A stretch of DNA of 64,000 nucleotides from Nocardioides luteus (GTDB lineage Bacteria; Actinomycetota; Actinomycetes; Propionibacteriales; Nocardioidaceae): contig NZ_JADOVJ010000001.1 in the NCBI RefSeq assembly GCF_015752315.1, forward strand, positions 186,001 to 250,000, read 5' to 3'. Below the pieces are notes generated by a model. The model was given only the letters and a program-made list of their open reading frames with translations, made no database searches and was not told the DNA's origin. The translations under genes and the position numbers were made by a program. Each line of letters opens with the position of its first letter. Position 1 is the first letter of the stretch. Positions 8,972-15,323 of this stretch are shown piece by piece.

Positions 8972-10081
8972 ATGGGGATGCGACAGGAGAGCGGCACGCC
9001 AGCGCTGGCCGGGTGGGCTGCACTGGGGATGACGGTCGTTCTCTGGTCGTCGTTCGCGCTGAGCACGCGCGGCATCGGCGGGTCCAGCCTGACCGTCGCC
9101 GATGCCGCGTTCCTCCGGTTCGTGACCCCGGTCGTCCTGCTGGCCCCGCTGCTGCCGAGCACGATCCGAGCCGTACGCCGCGAGCGGCCGCAGGTGCTCG
9201 CCCTGCTGCTCGTCGGTGGGCTCCCGCACTTCCTCGTCTTCGCGTTCGGCGCCCAGCTGACCAGTGCAGCGCTCACCGGGATGCTGGTCCCGGGCACGGT
9301 GCCGCTGTTCGTCACGCTGCTGGCGATGGCCCACGGCCGGACCTCGATCCCGCCGCGGCGGCTGGCGGCGCTGGGGCTGATCACGGCGGGGGTCGCGGTG
9401 AGCGGGTTCCTGGTCGGCGGCGGCGCCTCGCTCGGCGGGGTCGGTCTGCTCCTCGTCGGCGGGTTCGCCTGGGCCGTGTTCACGTCGGGTCTGCAGCGTA
9501 CGAGCCTCACGCTTCTGCAGATGGTGCTGACGATCTGCACCGTCTCCAGCCTGGCCGCGATCGTCCTGGCGGTCTCCGGTGCGATGCCGTCTCATCTGCT
9601 CGCCGGGACCGCCGCGGCCGGTGACGTGGTCGCCCTCACCGCCCTCCAGGGCATCGGGACCGGCCTGATGTCGACGCTCTGCTACGCCTTCTCGGTCAAG
9701 GCGCTCGGCAGCAGCCGCGCCTCAGTGGGTGGCGCGGTGAGCCCGGTGCTGACCGCGGTCGTCGCGGTCCCGATCTTCGGCGAGCGGATCGGCCTCGGGC
9801 TCGCCGTCGCCCTGGCGCTCATCGTGGCCGGTGTGGCGACGTTCAACGTGATCGGTGCGGCGCCCTCATCGGCCGACGATGCGACCCGACTCGAACCGGA
9901 GGACGTGGTCGGCGGCGGCGATGCTCTCCTCGTCATGGGTGACGCACACGATCGTGGCCCCGCGCGCGGCCTCCTCGGCGAGGATCTCGCGGGTGCCCTG
10001 CCGGCTGGCGGCGTCGAGCCCCGCGGCGGGTTCGTCCAGGAGCAGGATCTCCGTCTGCTGGACGATGCCCTGAGCCAGTAG
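8972..10081 (+). CDS. EamA/RhaT-type (DMT) transporter with an antisense-overlapping tail
   Basis: 369 residues. The first ~295 form the ten hydrophobic segments of a two-repeat EamA exporter, from GWAALGMTVVLWSSFALSTRG to VALALIVAGVATFNVIGAA. The final ~72 residues are hydrophilic, Gly/Asp-rich, and exactly antisense to the end of the zinc ABC ATPase gene (216-bp overlap). They look like read-through sequence rather than a domain. Either the gene genuinely ends late, or a stop near 9866 has been lost. An in-frame ATG at 8978 is an alternative start. Divergence from an Lrp regulator suggests amino-acid or metabolite export. Confidence 0.85.
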   Translation: MGMRQESGTPALAGWAALGMTVVLWSSFALSTRGIGGSSLTVADAAFLRFVTPVVLLAPLLPSTIRAVRRERPQVLALLLVGGLPHFLVFAFGAQLTSAALTGMLVPGTVPLFVTLLAMAHGRTSIPPRRLAALGLITAGVAVSGFLVGGGASLGGVGLLLVGGFAWAVFTSGLQRTSLTLLQMVLTICTVSSLAAIVLAVSGAMPSHLLAGTAAAGDVVALTALQGIGTGLMSTLCYAFSVKALGSSRASVGGAVSPVLTAVVAVPIFGERIGLGLAVALALIVAGVATFNVIGAAPSSADDATRLEPEDVVGGGDALLVMGDAHDRGPARGLLGEDLAGALPAGGVEPRGGFVQEQDLRLLDDALSQ

Positions 10082-10522
10082 CGCACGCTGGCGCTGTCCG
10101 CCGGAGAGCTCGCCGAACGTACGCTGCTCGAGGCCGTTGAGGCCGACCCGGTCGATCGCCTCGGCGATCGCCTGCTCCCGCTCGGCCCGCCGGACCCGGC
10201 GGCTCCGGCGGCCCCAGGTTCCGATCGCGACGACGTCGCGGACGGTCACCGGCAGCGTGTCCGGGGTCGAGGGCCGCTGGACGACCAGGGCGAGCTTTCC
10301 GTGACGGGTGATCGCGCCGCGTCGAGGGTTGTGTACGCCGGCGAGAAGCTCGACGAAGGTCGACTTCCCCGACCCGTTCGGCCCGGCGACGGCGGTGACC
10401 GTGCCGGGCGAGAAGTCCGCGCTGACCTGGTGGATCACGTCGTGGCTGTCGTAGCCGAAGCAGACGTCGTGGGCGGACAGGAGCGGCGAGGCGGTCTGGT
10501 CGTGGGGGAGCACATGCCGCAC
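9866..10522 (-). CDS. aztA: Zinc ABC transporter ATP-binding protein (AztA-like)
   Basis: 218-residue ATPase of the ZnuC/AztA group. Walker A is GPNGSGKST near residue 48, the signature is LSGGQRQRALLAQ, Walker B is ILLLDEPAAGLD, and the switch His is in VTHDEE. The start is GTG at 10522, with a second in-frame GTG at 10513. It is divergent from the permease gene across a 46-bp gap holding a Zur-like box. Together with the permease and the binding protein it would form a complete metal importer. Its 3' end is overlapped by the EamA frame. Confidence 0.88.
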   Translation of the reverse strand: MRHVLPHDQTASPLLSAHDVCFGYDSHDVIHQVSADFSPGTVTAVAGPNGSGKSTFVELLAGVHNPRRGAITRHGKLALVVQRPSTPDTLPVTVRDVVAIGTWGRRSRRVRRAEREQAIAEAIDRVGLNGLEQRTFGELSGGQRQRALLAQGIVQQTEILLLDEPAAGLDAASRQGTREILAEEAARGATIVCVTHDEESIAAADHVLRFESGRIVGR

Positions 10523-10531
10523 TATATCAAT

Positions 10532-10546
10532 TGGTAATCATTCTCA
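10532..10546. promoter_or_regulatory. Zur-like box between divergent aztA and aztB
   Basis: On the minus strand the 15-mer TGAGAATGATTACCA differs at one position from the actinobacterial Zur pattern TGANAATGATTNTCA, as I recall it. It lies in the 46-bp gap between the GTG starts at 10522 and 10569, in an AT-rich pocket. One site could silence both arms of the zinc system when zinc is ample. Confidence 0.8.
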
Positions 10547-10568: not shown

Positions 10569-11456
10569 GTGTCATCGATCATCGAGCCGTTCCGGACCGA
10601 CTTCATGCTGCAGGCGTTGGCCGGCGGGGTGCTGGTGGCGGCCATCTGTGGGGTCGTCGGCACCTGGGTCGTGATCCGGGGAATGGCGTTCCTCGGCGAG
10701 GCGATCGGGCACGGCATGCTGCCCGGCGTCGCCCTCGCGACGGTCCTCGGCGCGCCCGTCGTGCTCGGTGGCGCGGTGAGCGCGATCGTGATGAGCGCGA
10801 CGATCGGAGCGCTCCAGCGCCGTGGCCGGCTGACGTACGACACCAGCATCGGGCTGCTGTTCGTGGCGATGCTCTCGCTCGGCGTCATCATCATCTCCCA
10901 CTCGCGCAGCTTCGCCACGGACGCGACGGCGATGCTGTTCGGCGACGTACTCGCCATCGGGCCCGACGACATCACCGTCCTCGCGATCGCCCTGGCGGTC
11001 ACCGTCGCCGTCGCCGGCGGGTTCCACCGGGCGTTCGTCGCCTCGGCCTTCGACCCCCGCATCGCCCGTACGTTGGGCCTGCATCCGCAGCTGGCGCAGG
11101 TCATGCTCGTCGGTCTGGTGACCCTCGCCGTGGTCGCGTCCTACCAGGCGGTCGGCTCGCTGCTCGTGATCGCGCTGCTGCTCGCACCGGCCGTGGCCGC
11201 CGGCCGGTGGACCACCAGGATCCCCACGACCATGGCCTGCGCCGCCGCCATCGGTGCCGTCGCGGTCCTCATCGGCCTGACCGCGTCGTGGTACGCGGGC
11301 ACCGCCGCCGGTGCGTCGATCGCCTGCGCCGCGATCCTCACCGCGGTCGTCTCCGGGCTGCTCCGCAGCGGCCTCGGTCTCCTTCGACGTCTGTCCCCCA
11401 CCTCCGAAAGGACCTCATGCACCGCAGGACACTCGCCGGCATCGTCACAGGGCTGA
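10569..11456 (+). CDS. aztB: Zinc ABC transporter permease (AztB-like)
   Basis: 295-residue ABC-3 family permease with about eight membrane helices. It opens with FMLQALAGGVLVAAICGVVGTWVVIRG and MAFLGEAIGHGMLPG, the family's ATPase-coupling region. ATDATAMLFGDVLAIG and SYQAVGSLLVIALLLAPAVAAGR are also typical of ZnuB/AztB. GTG start at 10569, 22 bp from the Zur-like box. The last 40 bp overlap the start of the next gene in another frame, so translation is probably coupled. Confidence 0.88.
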   Translation: MSSIIEPFRTDFMLQALAGGVLVAAICGVVGTWVVIRGMAFLGEAIGHGMLPGVALATVLGAPVVLGGAVSAIVMSATIGALQRRGRLTYDTSIGLLFVAMLSLGVIIISHSRSFATDATAMLFGDVLAIGPDDITVLAIALAVTVAVAGGFHRAFVASAFDPRIARTLGLHPQLAQVMLVGLVTLAVVASYQAVGSLLVIALLLAPAVAAGRWTTRIPTTMACAAAIGAVAVLIGLTASWYAGTAAGASIACAAILTAVVSGLLRSGLGLLRRLSPTSERTSCTAGHSPASSQG

Positions 11457-12634
11457 CGCTGACCGTCACCACGGGATGCGGCAGCAACGCGGCCCCCGCT
11501 GACGACGCCGATCCCGGCTCCGGGAAGGACCACGGCGCCGTCGAGGGTGCCCAGGAGGTCGCCGAGCCGCAGCTGCACCTGACGACGATCGACGCCGAGG
11601 GTGCGGTCGGCCAGCTCGATCTCATCGCGGGCAGCTCGGCGAAGGTCGGGACGATCGGAGCGCCCAGCGCCGTCGACAGCGACGGCCGCTACCTGTTCGC
11701 GACCACCGGCGACGGCGTCGAGATCGTCGACAGCGGCATGTGGACCTGGGACCACGGCGACCACTTCCACTACTACCGGGGCGAGCCGAAGCTGCTCGGC
11801 ACGGTCGAGGGCGGCGAGGCGACGGTCGCGACCGGTCCGCTGTCGACCGCCGGGTCGACCGGGGTGTTCTTCGCGGGGAGCGGCGAGGCGGTCCTGCTCG
11901 ACAACGAGGCCCTCGCCGACGGTGAGGTGCGCGAGCTCTTCCGGCTCGACGTCGAGCCGCACGCGGGGCTGGTCGCGCCGTTCGGCGACGGAGCCCTGGT
12001 GACGGTCGCCGATGGCGGTGAGGTCACCGGGCTGAGCTATCACGACGCCGACGGGGACATAGTCGGCGAGCAGGTGCCCTGCGCTCGGGCGAGCGGCACG
12101 ATCACCACCAGGGTCGGTGTCGTCGTGGGCTGCGCCGATGGCGCGGTCCTGGCAACGGAGTCCGACGGTGAGCCCGGCTTCGAGCGGATCGACTATCCAT
12201 TGGGCATCTCGGCCCCGCGGGCCTTGGCGTTCGACGGTCGCAAGAGCCGCCCGACCGTCGCGGCGCTGTCCGGGAAGACCGGGATCTGGCTCCTCGACAC
12301 CCGCGAGCGGAGCTGGAGCCACCTCGACGCGGGGGTACCGCTGCGCCAGGTGGTCGCTGCCGACGACGAGGACGGACACGTCCTCGCGCTCGACACCGCC
12401 GGCCGGGTCCGCGTCTACGCCGCCGAGGACGGCAAGCAGCTCGCGGCGACCGATCCGCTCGTGGACCTGAGCGACGCCACGGGAGTCGACCTGGTCGTCG
12501 ACCAGGAGCGGGCCTACCTGAACGTGCCGGCCGACGGGGTCGTCCACGAGATCGACTACGCCGACAAGGCACGGATCGCGCGGACGCTCGAGACGCCCAC
12601 CGCCCCGGTGTTCTTCACGGAGACGGGCCGATGA
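11417..12634 (+). CDS. AztD-like zinc chaperone paralogue, His-loop form (lipoprotein)
   Basis: 405 residues, ATG after GAAAGGA. The signal peptide has a weak lipobox, TTGC, with Cys21. The mature part is a beta-propeller-like repeat protein (GRYLFATTGDGVEIVD, GKTGIWLLDTRE, GHVLALDTAGRVRVY). The segment WDHGDHFHYY (Asp112, His113, His116, His118) is a strong metal-binding candidate and is typical of AztD as I recall. The later AztD motifs EAHHGV and CPGxHGE are replaced here by EPHAGL and CARASGT. It overlaps the permease and, through ATGA, the binding-protein gene. It probably hands zinc to AztC or stores it outside the membrane. Confidence 0.75.
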   Translation: MHRRTLAGIVTGLTLTVTTGCGSNAAPADDADPGSGKDHGAVEGAQEVAEPQLHLTTIDAEGAVGQLDLIAGSSAKVGTIGAPSAVDSDGRYLFATTGDGVEIVDSGMWTWDHGDHFHYYRGEPKLLGTVEGGEATVATGPLSTAGSTGVFFAGSGEAVLLDNEALADGEVRELFRLDVEPHAGLVAPFGDGALVTVADGGEVTGLSYHDADGDIVGEQVPCARASGTITTRVGVVVGCADGAVLATESDGEPGFERIDYPLGISAPRALAFDGRKSRPTVAALSGKTGIWLLDTRERSWSHLDAGVPLRQVVAADDEDGHVLALDTAGRVRVYAAEDGKQLAATDPLVDLSDATGVDLVVDQERAYLNVPADGVVHEIDYADKARIARTLETPTAPVFFTETGR

Positions 12635-13548
12635 GGCGCCTGATCGGCGTCGTGGCCGTCGCGATGACGCTCTCCGGGTGTGCCGGGGCGGGCGCCGACG
12701 ACGACCGCCCGCACATCGTGGTGACCACCAACATCCTCGGCGACGTCGTCGCGAACACGGTCGGCGACGCCGCCCGGGTCACCACGCTGATGCGGCCGAA
12801 CGCCGACCCGCACTCCTTCGAGATCTCCGCCCGCGAGGCCGCGACGATGCGTGACGCCGACCTGATCGTCTCGAACGGGCTCGGCCTCGAGGAGGGGCTC
12901 CAGCGCCATCTCGACCAGGCGGCCGAGGCCGGCGTCGAGACGTACGTCGCGGGGGAGCAGATCGACGTCCTCGACTACTCCGACGGCGAAGCCGAAGGCA
13001 CCCCGGATCCGCACTTCTGGACCGACCCGGCGCGGATGCGCGACGTGGTCGACGGCCTCGAGGCGGCGGCCAAGGACATCGACGGGATCGACGAGACCGC
13101 CGTGGAGCAGGCAGCGGCTGCGTACCGGACCGAGCTCGACCAGCTCGACCGGGAGATGACCGAATCCTTCGGGAGCATCCCGGAGCAGCACCGCAGCCTG
13201 GTCACCAACCACCACGTCTTCGGTTACCTGGCGGACCGGTTCGGGTTCCGTGTCGTCGGTGCGGTGATCCCCGGCGGGACGACCCTGGCCGCACCCAGCG
13301 CTGCGGACCTGCGCGACCTGACCGCGGCGATCGAGCAGGCGGACGTACCGACGATCTTCGCCGAGTCCTCCCAGCCCGACCGCCTCATCCAGGTGCTCGC
13401 CGACGAGGCGGGCGTCGATGTCGAGGTCAGCGAGCTGTTCACCGAGTCCCTGACCGAGAAGGGCCAGGGCGCCGACACCTACCTCTCCATGATGCGCGCC
13501 AACACCGAGCGCATCACCAGCGGGCTCTCACCCGGGCCCACCGATTGA
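12631..13548 (+). CDS. aztC: Zinc ABC transporter substrate-binding lipoprotein (AztC-like)
   Basis: 305-residue cluster A-I metal-binding protein. The lipobox is LSGC (Cys17). Likely zinc ligands are His61 (NADPHSFE), His128 (PDPHFW) and His194/His195 (TNHHVFGYLADRFG), with an acidic ligand near TESL close to the C-terminus. The His-rich loop usual in ZnuA is short and acidic here (DYSDGEAEGTPDP), as in AztC-type proteins that rely on a partner chaperone. It overlaps the upstream AztD-like gene by 4 bp, and a second AztD-like gene follows after 10 bp. Confidence 0.88.
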   Translation: MRRLIGVVAVAMTLSGCAGAGADDDRPHIVVTTNILGDVVANTVGDAARVTTLMRPNADPHSFEISAREAATMRDADLIVSNGLGLEEGLQRHLDQAAEAGVETYVAGEQIDVLDYSDGEAEGTPDPHFWTDPARMRDVVDGLEAAAKDIDGIDETAVEQAAAAYRTELDQLDREMTESFGSIPEQHRSLVTNHHVFGYLADRFGFRVVGAVIPGGTTLAAPSAADLRDLTAAIEQADVPTIFAESSQPDRLIQVLADEAGVDVEVSELFTESLTEKGQGADTYLSMMRANTERITSGLSPGPTD

Positions 13549-13558
13549 AAGGCACACC

Positions 13559-14737
13559 ATGCACACCCCACAGAACCGTGCCCTCCGAGCCGTCACGGCG
13601 GTGGCCGGCATGTCGCTGGCGCTCTCGGCGTGCGGCTCCACCGCCGAAGGCGAGGAGCCCACGGCAAAGGCCGACAAGGGCAGCCGCCTCGCGGTGTCCT
13701 ACGCCAACGGGATCGCCGTCCTCGACGGTGAGACCCTCGAGGTCGTCGACGAGTTCGAGACCGAGGAGTTCGTACGTCTCAACCCGATCGGTGACGGTCG
13801 CAACCTCGCCGTCACCACCAGCAAGGGCTTCCAGGTGCTCGACACCCGGACGCCCGAGCTGACCGACCTGGTCTTCCCGGCCGACACCGGCGGCCACGTC
13901 GTCCACCACGGCGACACGACGGTCCTCTACGCCGACGGCAGCGGCGAGACGACCATCTTCGACACCGCCGCCCTGGGGGACGCCGGCAAGCTCCCGGAGA
14001 CCACGACCTGGACCGCCCCCGAGGCCCACCACGGCGTCTCGATCGTGCTCGAGGACGGCACCCTGCTGACCACGGTGGGCACCGAGGAGAGCCGTTCGGG
14101 CGCGATCGCTCTGACGCCCAAGGGCAGCAGCTTCGAGCAGATCGCCGCCAACGACACGTGCCCCGGCATCCACGGTGAGGGCACCGCGGCCGACGAGGCG
14201 GTCGTCTTCGGCTGCGAGGACGGCGCCCTGCTCTACCGCGACGGTGCGTTCGAGAAGCTCCAGGCGCCCGACGAGTTCGGCCGGATGGGCAACGCGTACG
14301 TCTCCGAGACCAGCCCGCTCATCGTCGGCGACTACAAGACCGACCCCGACGCCGAGGGCTACCTGCTCGACATGGTCACGCTGATCGACACCGAGAAGAG
14401 CACCCTGAAGACGGTCTCGCTCCCCGAGGGCGTCGAGTACACCTTCCGCGACGTCGCACGCGGCCCCGAGGACCTCGCCTACATCCTCGCCACCGACGGC
14501 TCCATCCATGTCCTCGACCCCGCGACCGGCACGATCACCGACGAGTACCCGGTCGTGAAGCCCTGGGAGGGCCCGGTCGAGTGGCAGGACCCGCACCCGG
14601 CGATCAAGGTGGACGGCGACATCGCGTACGTCACCGAGCCCGCCACCAACACGGTCCACGCCGTCGACCTGACCTCGGGCGAGATCACCGCCTCCGTCGA
14701 GCTCGACGAGCAGCCGAACGAGATCGCCCTGAGCTGA
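13559..14737 (+). CDS. aztD: AztD-like zinc metallochaperone (lipoprotein)
   Basis: 392 residues, ATG preceded by GAAAGG. The lipobox is LSAC (Cys25). The propeller-like body carries the His motifs expected of AztD: GGHVVHHGDT (His113, 116, 117), EAHHGVSIVLEDG (His157, 158), CPGIHGEG (Cys201, His205) and VVFGCEDGALL. The N-terminal His loop seen in the paralogue at 11417 is absent; FQVLDT is followed directly by RTPELTDL. The two proteins thus carry complementary halves of the usual motif set. It is the last gene of the operon and faces a repeat/terminator region. Confidence 0.82.
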   Translation: MHTPQNRALRAVTAVAGMSLALSACGSTAEGEEPTAKADKGSRLAVSYANGIAVLDGETLEVVDEFETEEFVRLNPIGDGRNLAVTTSKGFQVLDTRTPELTDLVFPADTGGHVVHHGDTTVLYADGSGETTIFDTAALGDAGKLPETTTWTAPEAHHGVSIVLEDGTLLTTVGTEESRSGAIALTPKGSSFEQIAANDTCPGIHGEGTAADEAVVFGCEDGALLYRDGAFEKLQAPDEFGRMGNAYVSETSPLIVGDYKTDPDAEGYLLDMVTLIDTEKSTLKTVSLPEGVEYTFRDVARGPEDLAYILATDGSIHVLDPATGTITDEYPVVKPWEGPVEWQDPHPAIKVDGDIAYVTEPATNTVHAVDLTSGEITASVELDEQPNEIALS

Positions 14738-14749
14738 CGTCACTCGACG

Positions 14750-14903
14750 CCGAGTCGGCGCATCTGTCCCAGCTCAGAGTGCCGAGTCGGCGCGTCTGTC
14801 CCAGATCCGAGGCCCGAGTCGGCGCATCTGACCCGCGCCTCGATCACGGGCGGGACAGACGCGCCGACTCGGCGGCTTTTCGCGGGACTGACGCGCCGGG
14901 TCG
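14750..14903. repeat. 32-bp-periodic intergenic repeat with an inverted half (terminator-like)
   Basis: Three direct copies of CCGAGTCGGCGCRTCTGWCCC start at 14750, 14782 and 14814, exactly 32 bp apart. Two inverted copies start at 14852 (perfect) and 14884 (degenerate), again 32 bp apart. Copy three and the first inverted copy can form a ~21-bp hairpin with a 17-nt loop, followed shortly by TTTT. The block fills the gap between convergent genes, so it may serve as a two-way terminator. It resembles a REP/BIME-type element. Confidence 0.85.
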
Positions 14904-15323
14904 TCAGGAGAGGGCTCGGCGGGCGGTGTCCAGGAACGTACGGAAGGATTTGCGGTCTTCCGGGCCGAGGTCGGCCAGCATCTGCTCCTCGAGCTCCTCG
15001 ACGCGCGGGTCGTAGGTGTCGAGGAAGTCGCGGCCCTCGGCGGTGAGGCTGATCAGCATGCGGCGCCGGTTGTCGGGGTCGGTGCGGCGCTCGATGAGGC
15101 CGCGGCGCTCGAGGGCGCCGATGAGGTCGGCGGCCGACTGGGCGCGTACGAACGAGGCGCGGGCCAGGTCGGCGGCGCTCATCGTGGGGCGGCGCTCGAG
15201 CACGGAGAGCGCGGTGTACTGCAGGGCGGTGACCCCTGATTCCTTCAGCACGGCGTCGAGGCGGGCCCGCGTGGCGAGCTCGAGCTGCTTGACGACGTAG
15301 AGCAGCAGGGGTGCGTCGGTCAT
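14904..15323 (-). CDS. MarR-family regulator of the catabolic cluster (CouR-like)
   Basis: 139 residues. The winged helix includes TALQYTALSVLERRPTMSAADLA, FVRAQSAADLIGALERRGLIERR and the wing DPDNRRRMLISLT. It is divergent from the crotonase operon starting at 15408. An operator 50 bp from its start recurs almost exactly before the MFS importer at 25367. In Rhodococcus jostii the MarR protein CouR controls p-hydroxycinnamate genes and releases DNA on binding the hydroxycinnamoyl-CoA; the same gene kinds are present here. Function by analogy, not proven. Confidence 0.88.
   Translation of the reverse strand: MTDAPLLLYVVKQLELATRARLDAVLKESGVTALQYTALSVLERRPTMSAADLARASFVRAQSAADLIGALERRGLIERRTDPDNRRRMLISLTAEGRDFLDTYDPRVEELEEQMLADLGPEDRKSFRTFLDTARRALS

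Follow-up and report, generated by a model that had tools for sequence, protein, structure and literature searches.

Two AztD paralogues with complementary zinc sites in the aztABC locus of Nocardioides luteus and other actinomycetes

Genomic context of the azt locus

The DNA analysed here, referred to as the window, is a stretch of 64,000 nucleotides (nt) from Nocardioides luteus (contig NZ_JADOVJ010000001.1, positions 186,001 to 250,000) that carries a zinc transport locus of the AztABCD type with two AztD paralogues, termed D1 and D2. In the corresponding system of Paracoccus denitrificans, AztD has two zinc sites, as described in the open passages of PMC6689063: site 1, formed by His124, His167 and His218, lies in the pore, whereas a hairpin carries site 2, made up of His99, His102, Asp104 and the C-terminal His408. 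Each of the two paralogues in the window retains one of these sites.

The aztA gene (9866..10522) is located on the minus strand and encodes the ATP-binding cassette (ABC) ATPase (NCBIfam NF040873, 235 bits, cut-off 220). It is divergent from the other genes, which follow on the plus strand in the order aztB, D1, aztC, D2. The permease gene aztB (10569..11456; NF040871, 343 bits, cut-off 280) overlaps with its 3' end the start of D1 (11417..12634), the start codon of which lies within aztB. D1 shares an ATGA overlap with aztC (12631..13548), encoding the solute-binding lipoprotein (NF040870, 382.6 bits, cut-off 350), and 10 bases separate aztC from D2 (13559..14737). Read from the sequence, D1, AztC and D2 have predicted lipoprotein Cys residues at positions 21, 17 and 25, respectively. 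The first-pass annotation of this DNA had described the two paralogues as membrane-anchored lipoproteins in a Gram-positive cell, a property already stated for Gram-positive AztDs in the accessible text of PMC6689063. A third AztD was not found in the N. luteus genome (E < 0.1).

Complementary metal sites in D1 and D2

The AztD beta-propeller fold is present in both paralogues, which share 30.4% identity. Against the NCBIfam AztD model NF038015, D2 scores 449 bits, above the cut-off of 400, whereas D1 remains below it with 65.5 bits. A Pfam search returned no AztD family. Sites were numbered according to Paracoccus (Pd) AztD, with H124/H167/H218 as site 1 (pore) and the H99/H102/H104 column as site 2 (hairpin). 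Alignment of both proteins to this numbering, a check that the first-pass annotation had proposed, yielded complementary sites: in the rows of both families, D1 has site 2 and has lost site 1, and D2 displays the opposite pattern.

The D1 hairpin WTWDHGDHFHYY (11741..11776, plus strand) lies in the open reading frame (ORF) 11417-12634, where it had been located before, and carries His113, His116 and His118, equivalent to Pd positions 99, 102 and 104. Site 2 of D1 is therefore H, H, H, with His in place of Asp104 as in actinobacterial both-site AztDs. These positions are His in all 84 D1 rows and D101 is kept too; the site-1 columns are scrambled. Counts of 82 to 85 rows, here and below, include L016-L021, which are repeats of loci under other names. 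The earlier statement that D1 has lost the later His/Cys motifs holds for the site-1 His but not for the Cys residues, as the disulfide pair C214/C231 is retained in 82 and 83 of the 84 rows. Two flanking Tyr residues of the D1 hairpin are nearly invariant (81 and 80 of 84 rows) and variable in both-site AztDs. Such invariance is what a new contact surface would need, although other reasons are possible. His39 is invariant in the D1 alignment A1 and might stand in for His408.

In D2, the place of the deleted hairpin corresponds to VLDTRTPELTD (13835..13867, plus strand), as determined by residue count in Pd columns 92-112. D1 and both-site rows have 21 residues in this stretch, compared with a median of 6 for the D2 rows. 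Site 1 comprises His113 (13895..13897, equivalent to Pd His124) and, by alignment, His158 (14030..14032, Pd His167) and His205 (14171..14173, Pd His218), all on the plus strand. The first of these is His in 85/85 D2 rows, a class that is itself defined by the site-1 His. The motifs GHVVHH, EAHHGV and CPGIHGE are found in the ORF 13559-14737 without a D1-type loop, just as had been noted from the sequence.

Among the matches listed, 2 of 120 D1 relatives have a site-1-like pattern, namely P0102 (CxxHG) and P0113 (HHG). The pattern HxDHx[HD], seen in 40 of the 120 listed D2 relatives, was considered as a retained hairpin and rejected, being located near residue 190 in the 10 proteins inspected. 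An origin as pseudogene or artefact was likewise rejected, since the ORFs of D1 and D2 are intact and the pattern is repeated in 76 loci.

Distribution of the paralogue pair

To survey the pair, the model NF038015 was run against 294 genomes of the family, of which 85 matched, and 393 genomes of the class, of which 103 matched; allowing for overlap, these matches amount to 171 genomes. A total of 160 loci were fetched from 152 of the 171 genomes and one further genome, and L022 was added; besides the window's own genome, 18 matching genomes lie outside the fetched set. The survey sample comprises the 157 actinomycete loci with a scorable AztD ORF. L105, L155, L230 and L241, in which the AztD ORF was unscored by the window queries, and the repeats L016-L021 are outside these 157. 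Three loci were used unrepaired: L174, in which D1 is spread over two ORFs, L226, in which this is true of AztD, and the fragment L233.

The pair is present in 76/157 loci, 75 of which also carry aztA, aztB and aztC; the order in the pair loci as listed is A< B> D1> C> D2. The split is more than chance, because all 76 first paralogues keep HxHH and 69 of them are without any site-1 His; one such His is left in 3 loci, two in 3 and all three in 1 (L160). In the second paralogue (77 rows), the hairpin columns are empty or without His. Sorting the pair members by similarity to D1 or D2 of the window gives the same classes as the motifs. An oddity local to Nocardioidaceae was rejected as an explanation, since the split is found across the class. 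The survey of relatives for the same gene order, as suggested by the first-pass annotation, thus led far beyond that family, and the proposed new variant of AztABCD is borne out in that the split is real and tied to the aztABC operon. L189 has an additional D2 copy on the opposite strand, past the aztA end of the operon.

Of the 81 loci without the pair, 75 have a both-site single, and the fetched stretch contains aztABC in none of these. The remainder consists of three loci in which D1 stands alone or the single is broken (L226, L231, L232), two in which the hairpin of the single is changed (L161, L172) and one fragment (L233); L231 and L232 have D1 and AztC and no D2 within the stretch fetched. 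The singles, together with alphaproteobacterial AztDs and the open passages of PMC6689063, confirm the statement in the first-pass annotation that a canonical AztD has both motif sets. The neighbours of both-site singles (10 genes, 4 loci) revealed no common zinc partner; one ZnuA was found, beside L165.

D1 and AztC are nearly always found in the same genomes. Of the 393 genomes of the class, 51 contain split-type AztC (48 above the cut-off, two below it with 320 and 346 bits, and one truncated at the end of a contig), and D1, by profile A1, is likewise present in 51 (at least 189 bits in 49, in pieces in 2). Both are present in 50 genomes, with AztC alone in one and D1 alone in another. The AztC-only genome, G528 (L256), has aztABC, with D1 reduced to its last 20 residues and D2 to its last 41. 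As only these ends are retained, both paralogues were lost together; the D1 remnant directly before aztC may have been kept for translational coupling.

Fusions of AztB and D1 in mycobacteria

In 6 of the 76 pair loci, aztB and D1 form a single ORF, a fusion that places D1 at the permease. A search with one fusion gave 341 relatives. The 120 listed comprise 620-679 residues, contain an ABC-3 domain and belong mostly to Mycobacterium or Mycolicibacterium where named. H.[DE]H.H is present in all 120 of these listed matches and a lipobox-like Cys between the two parts in 94; the site-1 patterns looked for were found in none of the 120. L181, L176 and L198 are mycobacterial loci with this fusion, which the first-pass annotation had overlooked along with the loss of the AztC loop His described below.

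In Mycobacterium smegmatis, MSMEG_6052-6051-6050-6049 are described as an ATPase, a 'pseudo-ABC transporter transmembrane protein', a binding lipoprotein and a 'secreted protein'; zinc starvation induces them 54-, 227-, 557- and 625-fold, and they are counted as Zur-dependent (PMC7174638, open passages). The order of these genes, followed by those for a CobW protein and ZnuA, equals that of L181 and L176, a match in synteny that does not amount to proof. Where MSMEG_6049-6052 is lost with znuABC, growth failure is zinc-dependent (accessible text of PMC13098993). Judged by synteny, msmeg_6049, used as 'znuA2' in that text, corresponds more probably to D2; the binding protein would be MSMEG_6050.

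Loss of the AztC loop histidines

Paracoccus AztC cannot receive zinc without its D-loop (residues 117-133), nor if any one of three conserved His in that loop is missing (PMC6689063 and PMC7463823, open passages). In canonical alphaproteobacterial AztCs (five and PdAztC), columns 115-135 contain 3 to 13 His and the ligands are HHHD. In the window, alignment to PdAztC reveals a shortened, His-free D-loop (YSDGEAEGTP, residues 116-125; 12976..13005, plus strand). The same applies to most of the 83 AztC rows from split loci (77 without repeats), in which the loop mostly has 10 residues and contains no His in 76 rows and one in 7. The ligands of split-locus AztCs are HHHE in the window and in 82/83 rows, and one row is gapped at the first His. 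One of the 76 His-free rows, L150, does carry a His-rich insert, but in the alignment this falls outside the columns that were counted. The loss of the loop His in split loci indicates that donor and acceptor changed in concert, and no other observation points as strongly to an altered transfer step.

Phylogenetic reconstruction

The phylogenetic tree, built from 101 rows, unites D1 in one clade with a support of 98 in the Shimodaira-Hasegawa-like approximate likelihood ratio test (SH-aLRT). The sister of this clade (99) is the operon D1 of L160, in which both sites are still present and which stands alongside a hairpin-less D2 and an AztC with a His-free loop. The tree fits a descent of D1 from a both-site AztD. 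D2 proteins and both-site singles are intermixed, and the tree splits D2 (3 changes). A single origin of D2 is not rejected by the approximately unbiased (AU) test, with p-AU values of 0.34 (32 rows) and 0.494 (31 rows without L160); for this reason, parallel hairpin loss in several D2 lineages is not claimed.

The simplest history suggested by these sequences is that a both-site operon AztD was joined by a second AztD. In the same simplest scenario, the second AztD would have lost the hairpin and AztC the loop His, and the pore site of the first AztD would have disappeared later.

Two loci outside the actinomycetes were noted. On the Thermus thermophilus plasmid pTthSNM1-1b (L254, 3103-6801), a metal-binding protein lies between a both-site AztD and a divergent AztD-like protein that has no hairpin. 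This is a second two-protein arrangement, probably separate from the actinobacterial split. A Haloterrigena salifodinae plasmid (L248, 5818-7206) encodes a haloarchaeal both-site AztD that groups with actinobacterial AztDs in the tree; a ZIP transporter is located ~4 kilobases (kb) upstream.

Zur-like box and downstream repeats

The Zur consensus used for scoring was TGAAAATNATTTTCA. The divergent aztA-aztB promoter of the window contains a Zur-like box, TGGTAATCATTCTCA (10532..10546), that agrees at 11/14 consensus positions. A box with a score of at least 9/14 is found in 80/82 aztA-aztB intergenic regions (six are repeats of the same locus) and in 8.2% of shuffles. The consensus is in line with that printed for mycobacterial Zur in PMC7174638. 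Zur would accordingly be a candidate regulator of the operon in this strain as well.

Behind D2, positions 14748-14906 of the window contain three 32-nt tandem copies of CCGAGTCGGCGC[AG]TCTG(T/A)CCC and two inverted copies, the repeat arms being up to 22 nt long and 100% complementary. This arrangement is suggestive of an intergenic repeat element or a terminator.

Interpretation of the split

In P. denitrificans, zinc passes to AztC from site 2 only: an AztD without site 1 (delta-S1) transfers like the wild type, and one without site 2 (delta-S2) gives no transfer. For site 1, storage or dissociative release has been proposed, and the role of the pore site is left open (both PMC6689063, open passages). 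By this comparison, D1 has the transfer-competent site and D2 is without it. We therefore lean, if only slightly, towards a division of labour in a variant AztABCD system, with D1 as the permease-side donor to AztC and D2 as a capture or buffer protein. The pore site of D2 would capture or buffer zinc at the cell surface. D1, with its exposed hairpin site and adjoining or fused to the permease, would donate zinc to AztC, which would hand it to AztB/AztA; with plentiful zinc, Zur would repress the operon. The analysis establishes the sequences, fold, site pattern, operon order and co-occurrence, the missing D-loop His of AztC and the Zur-like box; zinc binding by D1 and D2, the direction of transfer, lipid anchoring, Zur control in this strain and the roles of 'capture' and 'delivery' are what we infer.

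Several observations weigh against this division of labour. The loss of the loop His argues most strongly against adopting the Paracoccus mechanism unchanged, and with such an acceptor the transfer from D1 might proceed differently or fail altogether. D1 is also without the C-terminal ligand His408, and all 120 D1 relatives among the matches listed end in GR; in AztDs, His408 is conserved in only 68.1%, the other zinc ligands in at least 95% (PMC6689063, open passages). Three D1s have two site-1 His and one has all three, and the only D1-containing genome without AztC among the 393 of the class, G636 (L257), has D1 and D2 adjacent with no aztABC within 18 kb. Finally, the classes D1 and D2 are defined by motifs, which makes the statement that D2 has site 1 partly circular.

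A rather unlikely extension of the division of labour would be a relay, in which the D1 hairpin plugs into the D2 pore, takes the captured zinc and offers it to AztC. In such a relay, a weak like-to-like contact would have become a one-way contact through the complementary loss, D2 having no hairpin and the D1 pore no His. The guest of the pore would have changed from the AztC D-loop to the D1 hairpin, which would fit the loss of the D-loop His. Such a contact is known from a crystal of Citrobacter koseri AztD, where the hairpin of one chain sits in the pore of the next with two zinc ions. It was judged an artefact, and transfer from site 1 to site 2 between mutant PdAztDs was not seen (PMC6689063, open passages); both count against a relay.

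The absence of that transfer and the storage or dissociative release proposed for site 1 in the same source would also suit two independent chaperones without a common pathway. D1 would serve AztC, and D2 would be a surface zinc store or serve other extracellular zinc proteins. Both-site singles away from aztABC indicate that AztD can work without the transporter, but D1 and D2 stand together in one operon with aztABC in 75 loci, and L256 lost both while retaining aztABC, so that we consider independence unlikely. The AztB-D1 fusions, the strong divergence of D1 (30.4% identity to D2) and the loss from AztC of the D-loop needed by the site-2 mechanism would be accounted for if D1 were an extracellular permease subunit, for example a docking platform for AztC, with a structural or zinc-sensing hairpin; D2 would then be the working AztD, with an altered transfer from site 1. 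We hold this to be quite improbable, as the metal ligands of the transfer site are exactly kept and invariant in 84 rows, the flanking Tyr residues of the D1 hairpin are more conserved than in both-site AztDs, and delta-S2 PdAztD gave no transfer (PMC6689063, open passages).

Least credible to us is neutral decay, by which drift after duplication would have removed one site per copy without new function, site 1 being dispensable anyway. Site 1 is indeed unnecessary for transfer in vitro (PMC6689063, open passages), and deletion of AztD in P. denitrificans caused modest lags only (PMC7731109, accessible text). The retained sites, however, are invariant across distant families, both genes persist, and L160 is the only one of the 76 pair loci without complementary losses.

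Whether the separation arose many times or once and was retained, it places the AztD sites on separate proteins, so that each can be deleted, labelled or assayed without mutating the other. It also bears on annotation. In the database records inspected, the transfer-site protein is labelled 'hypothetical protein' and the one without site 2 'zinc metallochaperone AztD', and mycobacterial AztB entries contain a hidden D1 domain.

Comparison with known systems

No earlier description of a split AztD was found in the literature searched, which covered listings, abstracts and open passages, and the words 'paralog' and 'two copies' are absent from the accessible text of PMC6689063. The closest known system is AztABCD of P. 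denitrificans (AztD structure PDB 6ck1; C. koseri AztD 6cmk, 6n01), with which the Nocardioides locus shares the ABC subunits, AztC, the fold of AztD, both types of zinc site and the linkage in an operon; control by Zur is predicted for Nocardioides as well. P. denitrificans has a single both-site AztD, whereas Nocardioides has two proteins with one site each. The AztC D-loop contains 4 His in columns 115-135 in P. denitrificans, three of them named as essential, and none in Nocardioides; the AztC ligands are HHHD and HHHE, respectively, and aztA is divergent in Nocardioides.

ZnuABC2 of M. smegmatis (MSMEG_6049-6052) is a Zur-regulated zinc importer and shares with L181 and L176 the order of ATPase, permease, binding protein and secreted protein, followed by CobW and ZnuA. 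It is described as a second ZnuABC, and AztC and AztD are absent as words from the accessible text of PMC13098993.

A looser likeness exists to the polyhistidine triad protein PhtD of Streptococcus pneumoniae, a surface protein with the zinc motif HGDH-x-HYY that gives zinc to the binding protein AdcAII. Its fold is different and it has no two-protein AztD split; the local match of D1 to PhtD (E 0.09) and to the His-triad model (E 0.12) is too weak for kinship. ZinT-ZnuA and the ZinT-like domain of AdcA also resemble the Azt system in that an accessory extracellular zinc protein feeds a cluster A-I binding protein (PMC6689063, open passages), but their fold is unrelated and the accessory part is a single protein or domain.

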